Positions 39,822 to 51,119 of a DNA stretch of 64,000 nucleotides are shown one piece after another; position 1 is the stretch's first letter; every line of letters begins with the position of its first letter. Source of the DNA: Haloarcula nitratireducens. GTDB taxonomy: Archaea > Halobacteriota > Halobacteria > Halobacteriales > Haloarculaceae. The stretch is from contig NZ_RKLT01000015.1 of the NCBI RefSeq assembly GCF_019599505.1, forward strand, positions 8,803 to 72,802. The letters are read 5' to 3'. A program made the translations under genes and the position numbers. The notes under the pieces were generated by a model. That model ran no database searches. It was not told the origin of the DNA and worked only from the letters and a program-made list of their open reading frames with translations.

Positions 39822-40103
39822 CTACGAGTCGGCGTCCGACTCCGCGAGCAGGTCCGCGGCCAGCGACCGGGCGGCGTCGACGTGTTCGTCCGCCTTCTCG
39901 TCGCCCGTCGAGTCGAACTCCTCCAGTAGCTCCGCGACCTTCCCCACTCGCTCTCTGCGGACGGCGGGCGCGAGGTCGGTGATCGCGGCGTCGAGCGCGA
40001 TGGCCTCGGCTTCGCCCAGCCACCGGCTCGCCGTCCGCTCGACCGGACGCTCGCCGGTCGCTTCGAGATGTTCGTGCAGGGCGTGCAGTCTGTCTTCGTC
40101 CAC
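39822..40103 (-). CDS. Small conserved haloarchaeal protein
   Basis: A 93-residue acidic helical protein from a GTG start at 40103. Segments [32 protein letters not shown] and [26 protein letters not shown] are strongly helical and look conserved. No function is recognised. It lies between cobA and cbiP but on the opposite strand, 76 bp from the cbiP start, so it may share a divergent promoter with cbiP. Confidence 0.7.
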
Positions 40104-40178
40104 GGCGACGCTTCGCGCGGCGAGCGGAAAAAGCCGCCGTCGAACCACTCTTGTCGCCGGCCCGCTCACACTCGACCG

Positions 40179-41675
40179 ATGACTTCGAGCGGCGGACCGA
40201 CGGCCGACACCATCCTCGTCGCGGGCACCGCTTCGCACGTGGGAAAGAGCACGGTAGCGGCGGGGCTGTGCCGCCTCCTCGCCGACCGCGACCTGTCGGT
40301 CGCGCCGTTCAAGGCCCAGAACATGAGCAACAACGCGCGGGCGACGCCGGGCGGCGAGATCGGCGTCTCGCAGTACGTGCAGGCCCGCGCCGCCCGCGTC
40401 CCGCCGAGAACCGACCACAACCCGGTCCTATTGAAACCGCGCGGCGACGGCGAGTCCCAACTGGTCGTCGACGGCGAGGCGGTGGGCCACTTCGCCGCCG
40501 GAGCGTACTACGACGCCCACTGGGACAAGGCGCTGACGGCGGCCCGGGAAGCCCACGCTCGACTGGCCGCCGACCACGACGTGATCGTCGCCGAGGGCGC
40601 GGGCTCCATCGCCGAGATAAACCTCCACGACAGAGACCTCGCCAACGTCGAGACCGCGCGCTTCGCCGACGCCGACGTGCTGCTCGTCGCTGACATCGAA
40701 CGCGGCGGCGTCTTCGCCTCGCTGGTCGGGACGCTCGAACTCGTCCCCGACGACGTCCGCGAGCGCGTCGTCGGCGCGGTGATCTCGAAGTTCCGCGGCG
40801 ACGAGTCGCTGCTCGCGCCCGGCCTCTCCGCCTTCGAGGAGCGAACCGGCGTTCCGATACTGGGCGTCCTCCCGTACGACGACCCCGGCCTCCCCGAGGA
40901 GGACAGCGTTGCGCTTCCGTCCGTCGGCGAGCGCGCGATCCGCGGCGCGGACGACGGCGTCTCGGACGATCGGAGCGTCACCGTCGCGGTGCCGCGCCTT
41001 CCCCGCATCTCGAACTTCACGGACCTCCAGCCGCTCGCCGCGGTGCCCGGCGTCCGCGTCGCCTACGTCCCGCTCTCGGACCCGCTCGACGACGCCGACG
41101 CCGTCGTCCTGCCCGGCAGTAAGAACACCGTCGACGACCTGCTGGCGCTCCGGAAGGCCGGCTTCGGCGACGCCCTCTCGGAGTTCGACGGCCCGGTCGT
41201 CGGTCTCTGTGGGGGCTATCAACTGCTCGGCGAGGAGATTCGGAACGCCGATATCGAGGGGACGAGCGGCCGCGAGCGCGTCGAGGGGTTCGGCCTACTC
41301 CCGGTGACGACGACGTTCTCGACGGACAAGACCGTCGAACGCGTCGAACGCCGCCTGCGCGGCGTCGGCCCGTTGACGGGTGCGAGTGGTCCCGTCGAAG
41401 GGTACGAGATACACATGGGCGACTCGGCGCTCGTCGGCGACGCGATGCGGCCGCTCGAAGGGAGCGGCGCGGCGACCGACCGCGTGCTGGGAACCTATCT
41501 CCACGACCTCTTTGCGAACGACGTAGCACTCGATGCCTTCGTGAGAAACACGTTCGAGCACGCTGGAATCGAGCCACTAGCGCCGCTCGGTGACGACCGC
41601 CCCTCCCCCTACGACCGGGCGGCGTCGCTCCTCGCGGCATACGTCGACCCCGGCCCGCTCCCCGTCGAGTGGTAG
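40179..41675 (+). CDS. cbiP: Cobyric acid synthase CbiP (CobQ)
   Basis: A 498-residue glutamine-dependent amidotransferase that amidates adenosylcobyrinic acid diamide to cobyric acid. The N-terminal dethiobiotin-synthetase-like domain ([19 protein letters not shown] with P-loop, [10 protein letters not shown]) is followed by a class I glutaminase-like domain. That domain has nucleophile Cys in [12 protein letters not shown] (about residues 343-354) and His in GTYLHDLF near residue 440. It is separated from the salvage cluster by one opposite-strand gene and uses its own ATG at 40179. Confidence 0.95.
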
Positions 41676-42535: not shown

Positions 42536-42640
42536 GTGACATCCATGTCCGCTTGTAATCGGAACACCTGACACAGCAGGCGGTTTCTCGCAGGTTTCAG
42601 GACTCCACAACGCTCGTCATCACCGGGATCTCCGATTCAG
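42536..42640 (-). ncRNA. Candidate guide (reRNA/omega RNA) at the TnpB 3' end
   Basis: TnpB guide RNAs of this family extend from the tnpB 3' end to the element right end and into flanking DNA. The expected region here is 42640 down to 42536 on the minus strand, ending in a hairpin and GGATGTCA. No experiment is available; the placement is by analogy. Confidence 0.35.
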
Positions 42641-43833
42641 CAACGCTGTCCTGTGACACTGTCACTGGTGCGCCCATCCCGCGGTATGTCATCGTCGTCG
42701 GATTTCACGCGACAACTCTCACCCCACGGGTCACTGCGGCGAGCAATATTGATCGCCGCATTCAAATCTGCCTGATACGTGCTTACCCAACAGTCCTCGT
42801 TTTCACAACAGAATTCTGCCTGTGAGTGCCGCGTACCGATACGCTTGCACTGGTGGCATATTTTCGACGTATAGGCGGGATTGACATACTGAACTGGAAT
42901 CCCGATATCTACGGCTTTGTCTTCGAGACGCGTCTGTAGCCGATTGAACGCCCATCGATGGAGCCGCCGATTCATGTATGACCCATAGTCGAACCGTTCA
43001 CGAATCGTAGCGAGATCCTCCAAGACGATAACTGGGTTCTCGAACTGTTGAGCGTACTCAACACCACGCTTCGAAGCTTTCTCAATGATATCATCAAGTC
43101 CATCTTGGAAAGACTGTTTACGTTCCGTTATTCGCCAGCTGGCAGCATTTCGTGACTGGAGGCGCTTGAGGGTCGCATGTCGTTCCTTCTGGAGCTTTCT
43201 TGCTCGTTTTCCACTGATGAACAGTGGCTGTCTCGGCTTTCCCTGTTCAGTAGCACATCCGACTAAGAGGTTTGATTCGCCAACGTCGAACCCGACTGGG
43301 GTTCGCTCCGACGCCGACGGGGCCAAGGTTTCCTCAACCGCTCGCTTGATCGGAACCGAGAGTGACCACTGTTCCCCCTCGTACTGCAAGCGAACTTCAC
43401 CGACCGTCACCTCCTCGGCGATAATTTCGTGCCAGTGCTCGTGCTGGTCGGGGTTGATCTGCAACGGAATCCAGATATTCGGAGAATGTCCTGGAAGGGG
43501 TACCCGCCAACAAAATTCATAGGTCCGGTCGGTTGAGTGATCGAACCGAACGCCCCGGTTCGTGAGACGGACGGGTTGCTCATATCTGACTTCCTCCGCG
43601 TTATGTTGGTTTCGAAGGCGTGGAATACACTGCTTGAGGGCGTCTTTTGCATACGAGGTGAGGTCGTAGGGCGTTACGATCTCGTTCACCTGATACTGCG
43701 TCGTTGCCCCAGAACTGAATGCCTCTTCGAACGCTTCTCGGTAGGTTCTAAGAAGGATCTGTAGTTTCTCTTCCTTGTGCGCGGTTGGTTCAAGCAGTGT
43801 TGCCACTACTGTTCTCGTGATTGTCTTGGTCAT
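42637..43833 (-). CDS. tnpB: TnpB (RNA-guided nuclease of IS200/IS605 elements)
   Basis: A 398-residue TnpB, an RuvC-type nuclease guided by the element's own RNA. The RuvC catalytic acids are Asp183 (GFDVG), Glu272 (VLEDL) and Asp356 (TYQADLN). A zinc finger uses CHQC (326-329) and Cys342/343 to Cys348. N- and C-terminal lengths are normal, so it looks intact. Codon use is less GC-biased than neighbours, consistent with a mobile gene. No transposase TnpA is encoded, so mobility would need one in trans. Confidence 0.93.
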   Translation of the reverse strand: MTKTITRTVVATLLEPTAHKEEKLQILLRTYREAFEEAFSSGATTQYQVNEIVTPYDLTSYAKDALKQCIPRLRNQHNAEEVRYEQPVRLTNRGVRFDHSTDRTYEFCWRVPLPGHSPNIWIPLQINPDQHEHWHEIIAEEVTVGEVRLQYEGEQWSLSVPIKRAVEETLAPSASERTPVGFDVGESNLLVGCATEQGKPRQPLFISGKRARKLQKERHATLKRLQSRNAASWRITERKQSFQDGLDDIIEKASKRGVEYAQQFENPVIVLEDLATIRERFDYGSYMNRRLHRWAFNRLQTRLEDKAVDIGIPVQYVNPAYTSKICHQCKRIGTRHSQAEFCCENEDCWVSTYQADLNAAINIARRSDPWGESCRVKSDDDDIPRDGRTSDSVTGQRC

Positions 43834-44548: not shown

Positions 44549-44635
44549 CGCCTCTCGGACCGGATCTGTGGCTATCGGACGGCGGCGAGTTGGCAAACAC
44601 AGGGCTGTTATAGCCTCGGCGAGTCAGATATCCTA

Positions 44636-46420
44636 ATGACCTCCCGCAGCCCCCGCCCCGGGAGCGGGGTTACGCGCCGGGCGTTACTGGCAGGGCTGAC
44701 CGCGGGAGCCGCGGGGACGAGCGGCTGTGTGACGCGTCTCCGGACGCTGGCTAATCGACAGCAGCCCGACCCCATCTCCCTCTCGGTGAAGTGCCTCCCG
44801 GTCGACGAGGACCCGTACTCGGTCGCCATCGCCCGCCAGGTCGCCCAGTGGTTCGAGACGGCGGGCATCGATACCACCGTCCAACCGATGACCGCCGAGG
44901 AACTGTACCGACAGACGCTCGTCAACCACGAGTTCGACGTGTTCGTCGGGCAGTACCCCTCACACACGATTCAACCAGATGCGCTGTACTCGCTGTTGCA
45001 CTCGCGGTTCTCGGTCGAGGCGGGCTGGCAGAACCCCTTCGGGTACACGAATCTCACGGTCGACGACCTGCTGGCCGAACAGCGACGGACGTCGGGAAAG
45101 CGACGCGCCGAGGCCGTCGCGGAGATACAACGGCACCTCGTCAGGGAGTGCCCGTTCGTCGTCGTCGGCTTCCCGGACGTCATCAGGGCCGCCAGCAACG
45201 AGCGGTTCACCGGATGGCGCTCGATGGCTGGGCTCTCGCCGCTTCACCTGCTGTCGCTCGACCGCAGCGACCTCTCGGTGACGACGCTCCGGGCGACCAC
45301 GCCGGACGTGCGGCCGACGACCAACCTCAATCCGCTGGTCGCTCCGTTCCGCCGCAGCGGCTCGATAACGGAACTGATCTACGACTCGCTGGCCCGCCGG
45401 TATCGCGGTGACCTCCACCCGTGGGCGGCCGCCGAGTTCGAGTGGACGGCGGAGAGCCCGCCGGTGGTGCGCGCGACGCTCCGGGAGGACCAGACCTGGC
45501 ACGACGGCGAAGCCCTGACCGCGGACGACGTTGCCTTCACGTACGCGCTCCTCGCGGACACCTCGCTCGGCTCGTTCGACGAACCGGTTCCGCCGCTTCG
45601 CTTTCGCGGCCGGGCGTCGCTCGTCGAGGAGGCGACGGCGCTCGACGACCGCACCGTCGAGATCGAGTTCGGCGAGTGCACGCCCGAGGTCGCGACGCGG
45701 GCGCTCACCGTCCCGCTACTGGCCGAACACGTCTGGGAAGACCGGGCGGCCCGCGCGGACGTCAGCGGGCTCAACCTGGGATCGGCGACGACGGAGGCCC
45801 TCGTCGCGAGCGCGGTCCCGCCGGTCGGGAGCGGCCCGCTCGAATTCGAATCGGCGGCGGGCCGCCAGTCGCTGACGCTCTCCCGGTTCGAGGACCACTT
45901 CCTCGAACGGCCCGACCAGACGCGGCTGCCCGGTCCCATCGCCAGCGGCGTCCCGTTCGACGAGTTCGAGCTGCGGTTCGTCGGCTCGGACGCCTCGGCG
46001 GTCGATCTGGTCGCGAACGGGGATGCGGACTTCACGTCCGTCGGCGTGGGCCCCGACCTCGTCCGGACCATCGGGAAGCAACAGCACCTCACGCTGGCCG
46101 TCGACCAGACGGACTCGTTCTACTTCCTCGGGTTCAACGCGCGGCGGACGCCGCTTTCGAACCCGCGGTTCCGCCACCTCCTCTCCCGCCTGCTGGACCG
46201 CAAGACCGTCACGGAGTCGATTTTCGACGGCTACGTCACGCCCGCGGTGAGCCCGCTCGCCGGTACCGACTGGCTCCCGTCGGACCTCGCGTGGGACGAG
46301 GACCATCCGGTCACGTCCTTCCTGGGTAGCGGCGGCTCGGTCAACAAGCTACGCGTCCGCGAGGCCTTCCGGGACGCCGGCTACCGATACGACGAACAGG
46401 ATCGACTCCTCCGGGTCTGA
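44636..46420 (+). CDS. Solute-binding lipoprotein, family 5, with swapped lobes
   Basis: A 594-residue lipoprotein (TRRALLAG signal; lipid Cys31 in TSGC). Residues about 48-215 resemble the C-terminal lobe of peptide-binding (SBP_5) proteins: WFETAGIDTTVQPM, YTNLTVDDLLAEQR and ECPFVVVGFPDVI. Residues about 231-560 resemble the N-terminal and middle lobes: LNPLVAPFRRSGSITELIYDSLAR, WHDGEALTADDVAFTYALL, and RFRHLLSRLLDRKTVTESIF...DAGYRYD. Normal members have the order reversed. It is followed 1 nt later by a PAP2 phosphatase gene. No permease or ATPase gene is nearby. Confidence 0.85.
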   Translation: MTSRSPRPGSGVTRRALLAGLTAGAAGTSGCVTRLRTLANRQQPDPISLSVKCLPVDEDPYSVAIARQVAQWFETAGIDTTVQPMTAEELYRQTLVNHEFDVFVGQYPSHTIQPDALYSLLHSRFSVEAGWQNPFGYTNLTVDDLLAEQRRTSGKRRAEAVAEIQRHLVRECPFVVVGFPDVIRAASNERFTGWRSMAGLSPLHLLSLDRSDLSVTTLRATTPDVRPTTNLNPLVAPFRRSGSITELIYDSLARRYRGDLHPWAAAEFEWTAESPPVVRATLREDQTWHDGEALTADDVAFTYALLADTSLGSFDEPVPPLRFRGRASLVEEATALDDRTVEIEFGECTPEVATRALTVPLLAEHVWEDRAARADVSGLNLGSATTEALVASAVPPVGSGPLEFESAAGRQSLTLSRFEDHFLERPDQTRLPGPIASGVPFDEFELRFVGSDASAVDLVANGDADFTSVGVGPDLVRTIGKQQHLTLAVDQTDSFYFLGFNARRTPLSNPRFRHLLSRLLDRKTVTESIFDGYVTPAVSPLAGTDWLPSDLAWDEDHPVTSFLGSGGSVNKLRVREAFRDAGYRYDEQDRLLRV

Positions 46421-46421
46421 G

Positions 46422-47210
46422 ATGAGTCTGCTAACCGTCCTCGCCGAGGTCGTCGTCGTCGTGGCCACCGCGCTCTCGGTGGCGTCGGTGGCCGTCGTCG
46501 GTCCCGAGAACATCAGAGCGGCGGCGGCGGACTTCCCGCAACGGCTCCGTGACGCCGCTCGACCGCTCGCCGTGCTGGTGGGGGTACTGGCGCTGAACAG
46601 CGTCGTCCGCGACGTGGGCGTCGAACTCTCCTGGCTCATCGGTCTCAACATCACCGACACCATCTACGCCATCGAGGGGTCGTTCGTCGCCGCTCTCCAG
46701 TCGCTCATGACGCCGTGGTCGACGCCGTACTTCGGCTACGTCTACATCTACGGCTACGTCTTCCTGCTGGTGTTTCCGATCCTCCTGGGTATCTTCGCCG
46801 ACGACGACTCCGTCCTCCGGCGGACGGCGCTCGCCTACACCGTCAACTACGGCGGCGGTATCCTCTGTTACCTCCTGTTCGTGGCTTACGGGCCGCGCAA
46901 CTACATGCCGGAACTCGTCGAGCCGCTGCTGTTCGATACGCTCCCCCGGTTCCAGTTGCTCACGAGCCGGGTCAACGCCAACACGAACGTCTTCCCGTCG
47001 CTGCACACCTCGCTGTCGGTGACCGTCGCGCTGCTCTCGGTCCACACCCGCGAGCGCTTCCCGCGCTGGACGCCGGTCGCGGTGTTTCTCGCGACGAGCG
47101 TCGTCCTCTCGACGATGATCCTCGGCATCCACTGGGGGACCGACGTCGTCGCCGGCGTCTTGCTCGGCGCGTTCGCCGTCTGGGTCGCGACGCGGTCGCG
47201 GTTCCGGTAG
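46422..47210 (+). CDS. PAP2-family membrane phosphatase
   Basis: A 262-residue membrane protein with about six hydrophobic segments. The PAP2 motifs are NVFPSLHTSLS (His, about residues 187-197) and GIHWGTDVVAGVLLGA (His and Asp, about 229-244), plus an upstream YGPRNYMPE. It removes phosphate from lipid or polyprenyl phosphates on the outer face. One nt separates it from the binding-protein gene, so they form a unit. The link between the two is unexplained. Confidence 0.88.
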   Translation: MSLLTVLAEVVVVVATALSVASVAVVGPENIRAAAADFPQRLRDAARPLAVLVGVLALNSVVRDVGVELSWLIGLNITDTIYAIEGSFVAALQSLMTPWSTPYFGYVYIYGYVFLLVFPILLGIFADDDSVLRRTALAYTVNYGGGILCYLLFVAYGPRNYMPELVEPLLFDTLPRFQLLTSRVNANTNVFPSLHTSLSVTVALLSVHTRERFPRWTPVAVFLATSVVLSTMILGIHWGTDVVAGVLLGAFAVWVATRSRFR

Positions 47211-48084: not shown

Positions 48085-49734
48085 TCAGTTCGACGCCGTC
48101 CGACGGAAGACGACGACGCCCTCGTTCTCGAAGACGGGCTCGTAGCGGCCGCTGAGCGCGAGCGAGCGGTCCAGCGTCCCGAGGTTGCGCTCGTGGTGAC
48201 CTCGAACCGTGTAGGACCCTTTGGGCACGTAGAGGTAGTCCGGGCTGGCGTCGACGGCCGAGAGCGAGCGCTCGACGCAACTGGCCGACTGGCACTGCGA
48301 GGCGTTCTTGAACGCGCCTAACTGGGGGCCGTAGGTGTCCGGGCCCCGCCACTCCGCACCCCACGGCGAGACGAGGATGGTCCGCTCGGCGACGGCCGGG
48401 AACCACTCGGCGGCGTCCCCGAGGACGACGAACGTCGCGTCGGGCCGCGTCTCCTCGGCGGCCCACTCCATCGCCGCCACGTCGTGATCGTCCACGAACT
48501 CCGGGGTCGTCTCGTCCGGGCCGGCGAACTCGTAGCCGACGCCGGCCACGCCCACCGCAGAGACGACGAGGAGCGCGGCGACGGCGATTCGGCCGGCCGT
48601 CCCGACGTTCGCGTTCACGGTCGCGCCCACGTCGTCGCCGTAGCGCTCCGTGACGACGACCACCGACGCGACCACCGCCACGGCCCCGACGGCGTAGGTG
48701 AACCGGGACTGGGCGAACGCCAACCAGACGGCCACCGTCCAGACGCCGACGACGCGGTGGCGCGTCAGGAGGAGGGCGACGGCGGCCGCGACGGGAATCA
48801 GCGCGAACGACGGGCCGTACTGGATGAGGTGCGTCAGGCCGCCCCCGACGCCGCCGTGGGTACCCGCCGCGCCGGTGAACACGCCCGGCCCGTGCGTGCT
48901 CGCGACGGTCAGGAGCCACGGCGAGACGAGCAACACGCCGCCGAGGCCGACGACCGCGCCCCGCGCGAGTCCGAGGAGCGACCGGTCGTAGCCGGCCCAG
49001 AACAGGAGGTACGTCAGGACGACGAACAGCGTGTACGTCGGGTGCGTGAGTGCGACCAGCACGAACCCGAGGAGGCCGACGGGGACCCACGCGGTCTCGC
49101 CGTCGCGGAAGATGCGGAGCGCGGCGTAGGCCCCACAGAGCGCGAGGAGGAACGCGGGCGCGCGGACGAGACCACCGGCCGAGATGTGCCACTGGAGGAC
49201 CTGCGGGTTCAGTCCAACCAAGAGGGCGACGGCCGTCCCGGCGCGGCGGTCACCGAGGAGGTCGCGGCCCAGCAGATACGCCGGGACGAGCGCCGCGACG
49301 GTGACGAGCGGCGGGAGGTACAGCGCCGTGGCGAACGTCGGCGCACCGAGGTCCCGAAGCACCGCGAGCGCGTAGAACACCAGCGGCGGATAGGCGAACG
49401 GGACCCCGCGCGGCCCGTAGTGGGGCACCGTCGCCGGCAGGGCGTAGCCGTTCGCTCGGATCGCGTCGGCGGTGAGCGTGTACAGCCCCGCACCGAAGGC
49501 CGGGTAGGCGTTCGTCGCGGCGTACAGCGCCGTCACGACGAGACCGACCAACAGCGGCCACGCGAGCCACGGCCAGTCCCTCTCAGAGACGGGCGAGGGC
49601 GGGAGCGCTCGCCGCAGTCGCCCGGGAGCGCTCTCAGTCGTCGCTCCATCGGTCGCCCTCGCGTCTGTGGTCGTCGTGTCCGCCGTCGCCGAATCGGCGC
49701 TCACCGCGTCCGTGGTGGTCGTGTCGTCGGTCAT
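48085..49734 (-). CDS. Multi-pass membrane protein, glycosyltransferase-39-like
   Basis: A 549-residue membrane protein. After an Asp/Thr-rich N terminus it has about ten to twelve hydrophobic helices. AFAYPPLVFYALAVLRDLGA and GLNPQVLQWHISAGGLVRAPAFLLALCG are typical of polyprenyl-phosphate-dependent glycosyltransferases or their relatives. The C-terminal about 120 residues (from SPWGAEWRGPDTYGP) form an external domain. The start at 49734 forms an ATGA overlap with the arylsulfotransferase-like gene, indicating a coupled pair. The exact reaction is unknown. Confidence 0.82.
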   Translation of the reverse strand: MTDDTTTTDAVSADSATADTTTTDARATDGATTESAPGRLRRALPPSPVSERDWPWLAWPLLVGLVVTALYAATNAYPAFGAGLYTLTADAIRANGYALPATVPHYGPRGVPFAYPPLVFYALAVLRDLGAPTFATALYLPPLVTVAALVPAYLLGRDLLGDRRAGTAVALLVGLNPQVLQWHISAGGLVRAPAFLLALCGAYAALRIFRDGETAWVPVGLLGFVLVALTHPTYTLFVVLTYLLFWAGYDRSLLGLARGAVVGLGGVLLVSPWLLTVASTHGPGVFTGAAGTHGGVGGGLTHLIQYGPSFALIPVAAAVALLLTRHRVVGVWTVAVWLAFAQSRFTYAVGAVAVVASVVVVTERYGDDVGATVNANVGTAGRIAVAALLVVSAVGVAGVGYEFAGPDETTPEFVDDHDVAAMEWAAEETRPDATFVVLGDAAEWFPAVAERTILVSPWGAEWRGPDTYGPQLGAFKNASQCQSASCVERSLSAVDASPDYLYVPKGSYTVRGHHERNLGTLDRSLALSGRYEPVFENEGVVVFRRTASN

Positions 49735-51119
49735 CGTCTTCGGAACTGGAGCGGCGAGCGGACGCTCACCGCGAGGTCGCGTCGTCGCCACTCGACGATT
49801 AGCAACAGCGGTACAGTGACGAGCAGTCCCAGCACCGCGAGGGCGTCGAGGGTGCCCATCCAGCCGGGCATGAGGTAGGCCACGCCGTTGACGACCTTCT
49901 GGGGCGCGGCGGCCTTCACCCGGCCGACCGATCCGCGGTCGCTGGCGTTCGGCGTCCGGTCGGGGAGTCCGAGCGCGGCGGCGCTCTGCCCGCCCGCGCT
50001 CTCGTCGCCGGTCCCGAAGCGCTCCGCCTCGTAGGGGAAGCCGATGTCCGCGCTCCAGACGACCTCGCCGGACTCGTCGACTTCGAGGACGCGGTCGCCG
50101 TTAGAGTCGGCCATGAGCGTGTGGCCGTTCGGGAGGCGGTCGGCGTCCCGGACCCACGTCAGCCGCGAGTCCTTCCACTTCCACGACTGGACCCACTCGC
50201 CGTCCTCGCGTTGATATTCGACGACGCGGCCGTTCTCGGAGTCGGCGACGAGGACGGCGGGACCGCCGCGCTCGGCCGGGATGAAGTCGGGGTTGTGCTG
50301 TTCGTACAGCGTGTCGTGGTCGCCGTCTTCCCCGAGCGTCCAGTCCTCGCGCAGGCCCCGTTCCATGTCGATGAAGACGACCTGGTCCTGATTGCGGAGG
50401 CTCGCCATCACGGTCGGTCGACCGTCTATCTCGACGTACTCGACGTCGTTGAGGTGCGTCCAGTCCGAGGGGTAGGGGCCGCCGCTGGAGGTGTTGTAGT
50501 CCGCCTGTGCGTCCCACGACCACTCGACCAGTTCCGTCGTCGTGTTGACGACGTACGCCCGGTCGCGGTCGATGTCGGCGACCAGCAGGCGGTCTTCGCT
50601 GATGCGGTCGACGTCGTGCCAGCGCGTCGAGTGCTTTCCGGGCGTGATGCGGCTGTAGACGCTGGTCACTTCGCCGGTCGTCATGTTCACCCGCTCGACG
50701 CCGTTGCGAGTACAGACCGTCTCGGCGTCGCACTGCTCGGGCGTGAGGTGTTGCGCGTAGACGTACTCGACGGTGGCGTTGGTCCCCGGCACGGGGTCGA
50801 CGTCCCAGTAGCGAGTGTGGCTGTCGTTCGCGTAGTAGATGCTGCCGTCGGGGGCGAACGCGACGAGTTCCGCGCGCTTGCGGGCGCTGTCGCCCTGGTC
50901 GCTCGTGAAGGCCGTCGAGTCCGTGGCGACGACCGTGAGGTTGTCGCGCGGGCCCACGACCGGGTCGCGCTCGCCGGTCTGGAGGGCGCGCTCGACCGCG
51001 GGATCGCCCCGGATCTCGTCGTTGCTCAACTGCGCGCTGGCGTAACTGGTAGCCAAGAGAAGCGCAAATAACAGCGTCAGGACAGCAAGTCCAGCGCTGA
51101 GACGCCTGCTATCGGTCAT
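49731..51119 (-). CDS. Arylsulfotransferase-like beta-propeller membrane protein
   Basis: A 462-residue protein with an N-terminal hydrophobic anchor (ALLFALLLATSYASA), then a beta-propeller like arylsulfotransferases (LVAFAPDGSIYYANDSHTRYWDVDP, HSTRWHDVDRISEDRLLVADIDRDRAYVVN, DADRLPNGHTLMADSNGDRVLEVDESGEVVW). A C-terminal transmembrane helix sits near residues 425-445. Family members transfer sulfate or remodel surface glycans at the outer face. It is coupled by ATGA overlap to the membrane protein downstream. The pair probably acts on cell-surface glycans; this is inferred. Confidence 0.85.
   Translation of the reverse strand: MTDSRRLSAGLAVLTLLFALLLATSYASAQLSNDEIRGDPAVERALQTGERDPVVGPRDNLTVVATDSTAFTSDQGDSARKRAELVAFAPDGSIYYANDSHTRYWDVDPVPGTNATVEYVYAQHLTPEQCDAETVCTRNGVERVNMTTGEVTSVYSRITPGKHSTRWHDVDRISEDRLLVADIDRDRAYVVNTTTELVEWSWDAQADYNTSSGGPYPSDWTHLNDVEYVEIDGRPTVMASLRNQDQVVFIDMERGLREDWTLGEDGDHDTLYEQHNPDFIPAERGGPAVLVADSENGRVVEYQREDGEWVQSWKWKDSRLTWVRDADRLPNGHTLMADSNGDRVLEVDESGEVVWSADIGFPYEAERFGTGDESAGGQSAAALGLPDRTPNASDRGSVGRVKAAAPQKVVNGVAYLMPGWMGTLDALAVLGLLVTVPLLLIVEWRRRDLAVSVRSPLQFRRR

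Follow-up and report, generated by a model that had tools for sequence, protein, structure and literature searches.

A stretch of 64,000 nucleotides from the genome of Haloarcula nitratireducens (contig NZ_RKLT01000015.1, positions 8,803 to 72,802; hereafter the window) carries two adjacent forward-strand genes, one for a lipoprotein of the family-5 solute-binding protein (SBP) fold whose chain order is circularly permuted, and one for a PAP2-superfamily membrane enzyme. The features of this gene pair, in window coordinates, are:

44608..44613, forward strand: TTATAG, a TATA-box-like element about 25 nt 5' of the ATG, read in the sequence
44636..46420, forward strand: circularly permuted family-5 solute-binding lipoprotein of 594 amino acids (profile, sequence and structure matches)
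44636..44728, forward strand: Tat signal (R14R15) of the SBP with a lipobox ending at C31, from the sequence
44768..45166, forward strand: SBP residues 45-177, the last third of the normal fold, N-terminal here (profile positions 386-517)
45317..46261, forward strand: SBP residues 228-542, equivalent to the initial two thirds of a normal-order protein (profile positions 77-355)
46422..47210, forward strand: PAP2-superfamily membrane phosphatase/phosphotransferase of 262 amino acids (PAP2_3, 3.1e-15; PAP2, 1.6e-13)

Both genes lie where the original prediction had placed them, including the start of the PAP2 gene at 46422, 1 nt past the SBP stop. Its proposal that the SBP is a lipoprotein agrees with the Tat signal and lipobox, in which R14, R15, G30 and C31 are each at least 90% conserved. 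The PF00496 (SBP_bac_5) model scores 140.8 bits on the protein against a curated cut-off of 32.4, and the fold is that of family 5, but the chain does not run in the normal order. As also predicted, a profile of the normal order, built from 15 proteins, matches in swapped order and each part once, with independent E-values (i-E) of 5.9e-7 for residues 45-177, which correspond to residues 357-508 of the 4pft chain, and a match of 3.6e-25 for the part carrying the first two thirds, whose structural match extends to residue 594 (so that this part spans residues 228-594). A merely apparent swap, with the first 200 residues unrelated to the family or the gene a product of duplication, would accord with the weak N-terminal match in a single-sequence comparison (i-E 0.81) and with a structural aligner that returned only residues 211-594. 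The profile nevertheless finds the N-terminal segment in its swapped place and neither part twice, and 374 matched sequences classified by one rule comprise 310 permuted, 28 normal and 34 unclear cases and two without a usable N-terminal part; the apparent-swap explanation is hardly credible and is already refuted at the sequence level. On these matches we file the window SBP as a permuted variant of SBP_bac_5. Its nearest relatives come from Haloarcula (95% to H. limicola and 91% to H. amylovorans, locus L001).

The PAP2 protein exceeds the cut-offs of both PAP2_3 (56.9 bits vs 27) and PAP2 (51 vs 27.2), and four residues of catalytic type (R159, H195, H237 and D241) show conservation of 95% or more across 58 PAP2 sequences, so the enzyme is likely to be active. 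It shares the PAP2 domain and catalytic-type residues with PgpB and undecaprenyl-diphosphatase type enzymes, and falls short of the NCBIfam equivalog cut-offs for both (40.3 of 261 bits and 23.3 of 250 bits, respectively). Motif 1 reads GPRN and motif 3 S-T-M, which departs from the classical wording. Active sites of PgpB-kind PAP2 enzymes face outwards. The TTATAG element would suit a leaderless transcript covering both genes, if it acts as their promoter. No ABC family was found among nine window open reading frames scanned around the SBP, in line with the predicted absence of transporter genes.

The original prediction had proposed a search for permuted homologs next to PAP2 genes. Scanning GTDB genomes with patterns derived from the SBP alone returned 51 loci, 50 of them haloarchaeal, and a PAP2 gene lies downstream of an SBP copy on the same strand in 49 of these 50, with match edges at most 204 bp apart; at the remaining locus (L048) the contig ends within the SBP gene. 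Across 292 Halobacteria genomes, with presence thresholds of 1e-30 for the SBP and 1e-20 for PAP2, the SBP occurs in 191 and PAP2 in 193 genomes: 190 have both, one the SBP only, three PAP2 only and 98 neither. The predicted pairing is thus real at the level of both loci and genomes, and the sole SBP-only genome (G132) carries an ABC-operon relative. A candidate PAP2 start lies within 20 nt of the SBP stop, often overlapping it, at 43 of 58 PAP2 places, a flattering count as it takes the nearest candidate start. Nine loci hold two SBP-PAP2 pairs. In Natronorubrum bangense, tandem pairs occur at identical positions on the chromosome and a plasmid (L012 and L013), representing either a duplicated segment or an assembly effect.

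The swapped order had also been taken as a pointer away from import, and this step does not survive comparison with other permuted proteins. A PF00496 search of 13 Halobacteria genomes gave 66 rows for 65 proteins, tallied by eye, in which the match ends at profile positions 334-366 in 40 proteins and at 257-288 in 25; one of the latter (in genome G013) has piece 250-361 ahead of piece 1-262 in a single frame. Genomic context, read at 21 haloarchaeal loci covering 23 of these 25 proteins, divides them in two: at 15 the SBP has permease and ATPase genes nearby and PAP2 was not matched, and at six PAP2 is there and neither a permease nor an ATPase was matched. The swapped order is also present on plasmid records of Nitratireductor, Roseomonas, Halomarina and Halalkalicoccus, where two permeases and two ATPases follow each gene. 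These proteins, together with that of locus L058 in genome G001, are colinear with the window SBP at about 25% identity, but unlike it they have permeases and ATPases downstream and fall outside the PAP2-linked clade. The Roseomonas protein as query retrieved 1664 relatives at 1e-20, and all 120 among the matches listed were called permuted.

A tree of 84 rows chosen from those matched (62 permuted and 22 normal, the latter including L072, L083 and L056, which are unclear by the rule and whose pieces run in order from N to C terminus) places the PAP2-linked proteins in one clade (34 of 34 rows, SH-aLRT 100). This clade sits within a 55-row group (support 92, not strong) that adds 10 haloarchaeal ABC-operon proteins and 11 Roseomonas-kind proteins, of which L060 and L061 were found in ABC operons. 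Another seven permuted proteins, also from ABC operons (L093-L095, L098, L102, L106 and L111), fall among the normal-order ones, suggesting repeated permutation in family 5. A single origin of the permutation for these rows was rejected by the AU test (p 0.00034, subject to long branches and a short tree search), so that by this analysis the permutation arose more than once. On the same tree the permutation precedes the PAP2 pairing in the ancestry of the window SBP, and the pairing marks one clade. With repeated origins, permutation before pairing and permuted proteins, bacterial ones included, in ABC operons, the inference from chain order to a non-import role breaks; the permutation is inherited topology and not the cause of a new role. 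Conservation at 33 positions, H122, S123, Q132, P134 and F135 included, sets the PAP2 clade apart from its ABC-type relatives, and these positions may serve a ligand or contact specific to the clade. A separate observation concerns locus L086 (G003:C1:2362605-2365421), where two normal-order family-5 SBPs share one open frame of 1582 codons, a tandem fusion of the kind from which a circular permutation could arise.

A third membrane protein accompanies the SBP-PAP2 pair across genomes and is new here. This unnamed haloarchaeal protein (p489, of 489 amino acids in Haloferax gibbonsii; for example L064:6408-7877 and L144:4796-6112) is found at many loci, and occurs in 175 of 191 SBP-positive vs 4 of 101 SBP-negative genomes. 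Among 50 loci, 13 have it 66-291 bp ahead of the SBP; four of the 50 had an upstream stretch too short to tell. The H. amylovorans gene is about 20 kb downstream, a place that in the window would lie beyond the end. The protein has a signal or helix, an alpha/beta ectodomain and C-terminal helices (predicted model pLDDT 84.1), and gave no Pfam match at E-values up to 10. LssY proteins join PAP2 and LssY_C domains; a likeness of p489 to LssY_C was not supported, with nothing over the cut-off in six genomes, best HMMER values of 0.14 and 0.014, and hhalign probabilities of 0.5% and 3.7%. A metagenomic SBP relative of 847 amino acids (P0005) has an N-terminal extension that contains part of p489 (43% over 83 residues against P0242, 1e-16), which looks as if p489 and the SBP share a frame, as either a real fusion or an artefact.

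Two reverse-strand genes beyond the pair encode proteins that recur beside it in some genomes:

48085..49791, reverse strand: H568, a multi-spanning protein with weak likeness to archaeal STT3 (GT-C), its only family hint (TIGR04154, 6.5e-5, far below the cut-off)
49731..51119, reverse strand: ASST-like protein (arylsulfotransferase family propeller) beside H568 (PF05935, 2.6e-8; PF14269, 8.6e-7)

H568 occurs in 55 genomes. The SBP is present in 38 of these, and 32 of the 38 encode H568 no more than 5.1 kb from a copy of the SBP or PAP2, so that H568 is a linked partner in a subset of genomes. On plasmid pHG2 of Haloferax gibbonsii, p489 precedes the SBP-PAP2 pair, and an ASST-like protein and an H568 relative lie ahead of the pair on the opposite strand. 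Ten extra loci were picked for having H568 and are not a random sample: the eight that hold the SBP all have ASST and H568, seven have PAP2 (all except L115) and five have p489, while the two from SBP-negative genomes show H568 alone. Among the unbiased 50 haloarchaeal loci, ASST was matched in one and H568 in three. Upstream of the pair, a TnpB-like gene (Cas12f1-like_TNB; 42637-43833, reverse strand) lies in a low-GC stretch (0.516 at 43-44 kb) and is probably an insertion-sequence remnant. A cobalamin link, considered because of a CobQ-like gene upstream (40068-41675) and CbiX near 18 mostly Natrialbaceae loci, was judged a coincidence, as were ThiD-kind kinase genes near Halorubrum-type loci.

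We consider it about an even chance that the SBP is a transporter-free extracellular ligand-binding partner of an envelope PAP2 lipid phosphatase. The computed results behind this proposal are the fold family, the swapped order, the PAP2 residues, adjacency, co-occurrence and the lack of ABC genes at the PAP2-linked copies examined, as well as an origin inside a broader permuted group, in which the remaining haloarchaeal members sampled stand beside ABC genes. The single PAP2-linked clade, its 33 distinctive positions, the p489 counts and the mycobacterial precedents also speak for it. The two genes would form an envelope module in which the permuted SBP, exported by Tat and lipid-anchored outside the cell, has lost its transporter and come to serve the PAP2 enzyme. 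It might sense a ligand and set PAP2 activity, or it might present PAP2 with a lipid head group or with a polyprenyl (pyro)phosphate carrier, within a surface glycan or lipid metabolism that would also use p489 and, in some species, the GT-C-like and ASST-like proteins. By analogy with the transporter-free mycobacterial lipoproteins LpqW, LpqZ and FecB, whose mode of action may be similar, we take the SBP to be a ligand-binding partner of PAP2 in the metabolism of lipid carriers or surface glycans. The sensing or lipid-carrier role suggested originally may still hold; we prefer a version in which the SBP regulates, or presents to, the lipid enzyme. A more specific version, which we put forward tentatively and as the lesser chance, is a ligand-gated extracellular lipid phosphatase in which a former ABC binding protein, permuted by inheritance, is the sensor subunit of PAP2 and forms with p489 a three-part envelope system in about two thirds of Halobacteria, undescribed in the literature searched.

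Several observations weigh against such a partnership. The co-occurrence counts are raw and ignore kinship, and three genomes (G158, G237 and G254) have PAP2 only (at about 1e-21, with no SBP at 1e-30). At nine loci the order is SBP-PAP2-SBP and the second SBP copy has no PAP2 match behind it, and one SBP copy (L115:7163-8932) stands beside ASST and H568 without a PAP2 match, in a genome (G148) that holds a second SBP copy with PAP2. Genomes with the SBP are not enriched in H568 (38 of 191 vs 17 of 101 without it), a result which equally indicates that the PAP2 and p489 co-occurrences are not automatic. Finally, a shared permease encoded elsewhere may serve the SBP.

This last point leads to a rival in which the SBP remains an importer's binding protein: PAP2 would strip phosphate outside the cell, and the SBP would capture the product, or some other solute, and pass it to a Dpp-type permease whose gene lies elsewhere. 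Permuted relatives do occupy ABC operons, one or more family-5 SBPs are present in every one of the 13 Halobacteria genomes searched, so that other family-5 systems are at hand, and several SBPs sharing one permease are known from Pseudomonas (DppA1-A5; partial text of PMC4206461). Set against this are the strict pairing with PAP2 and the six PAP2-linked context loci, where no permease or ATPase match was found nearby, and we regard the importer explanation as unlikely, though the strongest of the rivals. A little less likely again is a stoichiometric carrier, as opposed to a regulator, that extracts a lipid or isoprenoid from the membrane and ferries it towards or away from PAP2, or to the S-layer; against it stands a p489 likeness below a trustworthy level. 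Decidedly improbable is that the SBP and PAP2 are neighbours with separate jobs held together by shared regulation alone: some SBP copies do lack PAP2, but the spacing of a few nucleotides or overlap at many places and the near-perfect co-occurrence, in many families with differing flanks, argue for a closer tie.

Family-5 proteins such as AppA, OppA, DppA, NikZ and AccA (SBP_bac_5, PF00496) have the normal order, whereas the window SBP is permuted, has no ABC genes beside it and is partnered by PAP2. Circularly permuted SBPs are already known as a kind: the available part of PMC4990184 describes TpMglB-2 (Tp0684) of Treponema pallidum as a circularly permuted SBP lipoprotein, 'Type Ic / Cluster Bc', which falls in a different SBP class (Type I / cluster B, glucose). 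It is the sole such lipoprotein met in the literature searched, which mostly excluded subscription papers, and the open-licence literature searched held nothing on permuted family-5 proteins or SBP-PAP2 operons. As far as the excerpted sources go, LpqZ and FecB are SBP-like mycobacterial lipoproteins without a transporter that bind AftA and AftB (PMC12802301), and LpqW channels a PIM (mannolipid) precursor to lipomannan synthesis (PMC3229680). Foldseek matches to the model of the window SBP include the LpqW structure 2grv. All three, like the window SBP, are lipoproteins of binding-protein type with a tie to enzymes that act on envelope lipids or glycans, but PAP2 is not among their partners, which work in arabinogalactan, LAM or PIM synthesis; LpqZ and FecB are more like other SBP classes, and the same excerpts mention no permutation for any of the three. 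The likeness is a working one and not a family relationship, and the tie of the window SBP to a membrane enzyme was examined as genetic linkage.

These genes carry the database label 'ABC transporter substrate-binding protein', which probably inflates counts of haloarchaeal importers and hides a conserved envelope module. The family amounts to a natural experiment: one fold acquired a permuted chain more than once, and a single clade is found next to a lipid enzyme rather than an ABC transporter. The SBP-PAP2 pairing suggests that such binding proteins can serve envelope lipid enzymes, and the family makes testable the idea that archaeal binding proteins may work for membrane enzymes, as ligand sensors or as helpers, as the mycobacterial SBP-like lipoproteins appear to do in the portion of PMC12802301 at hand.
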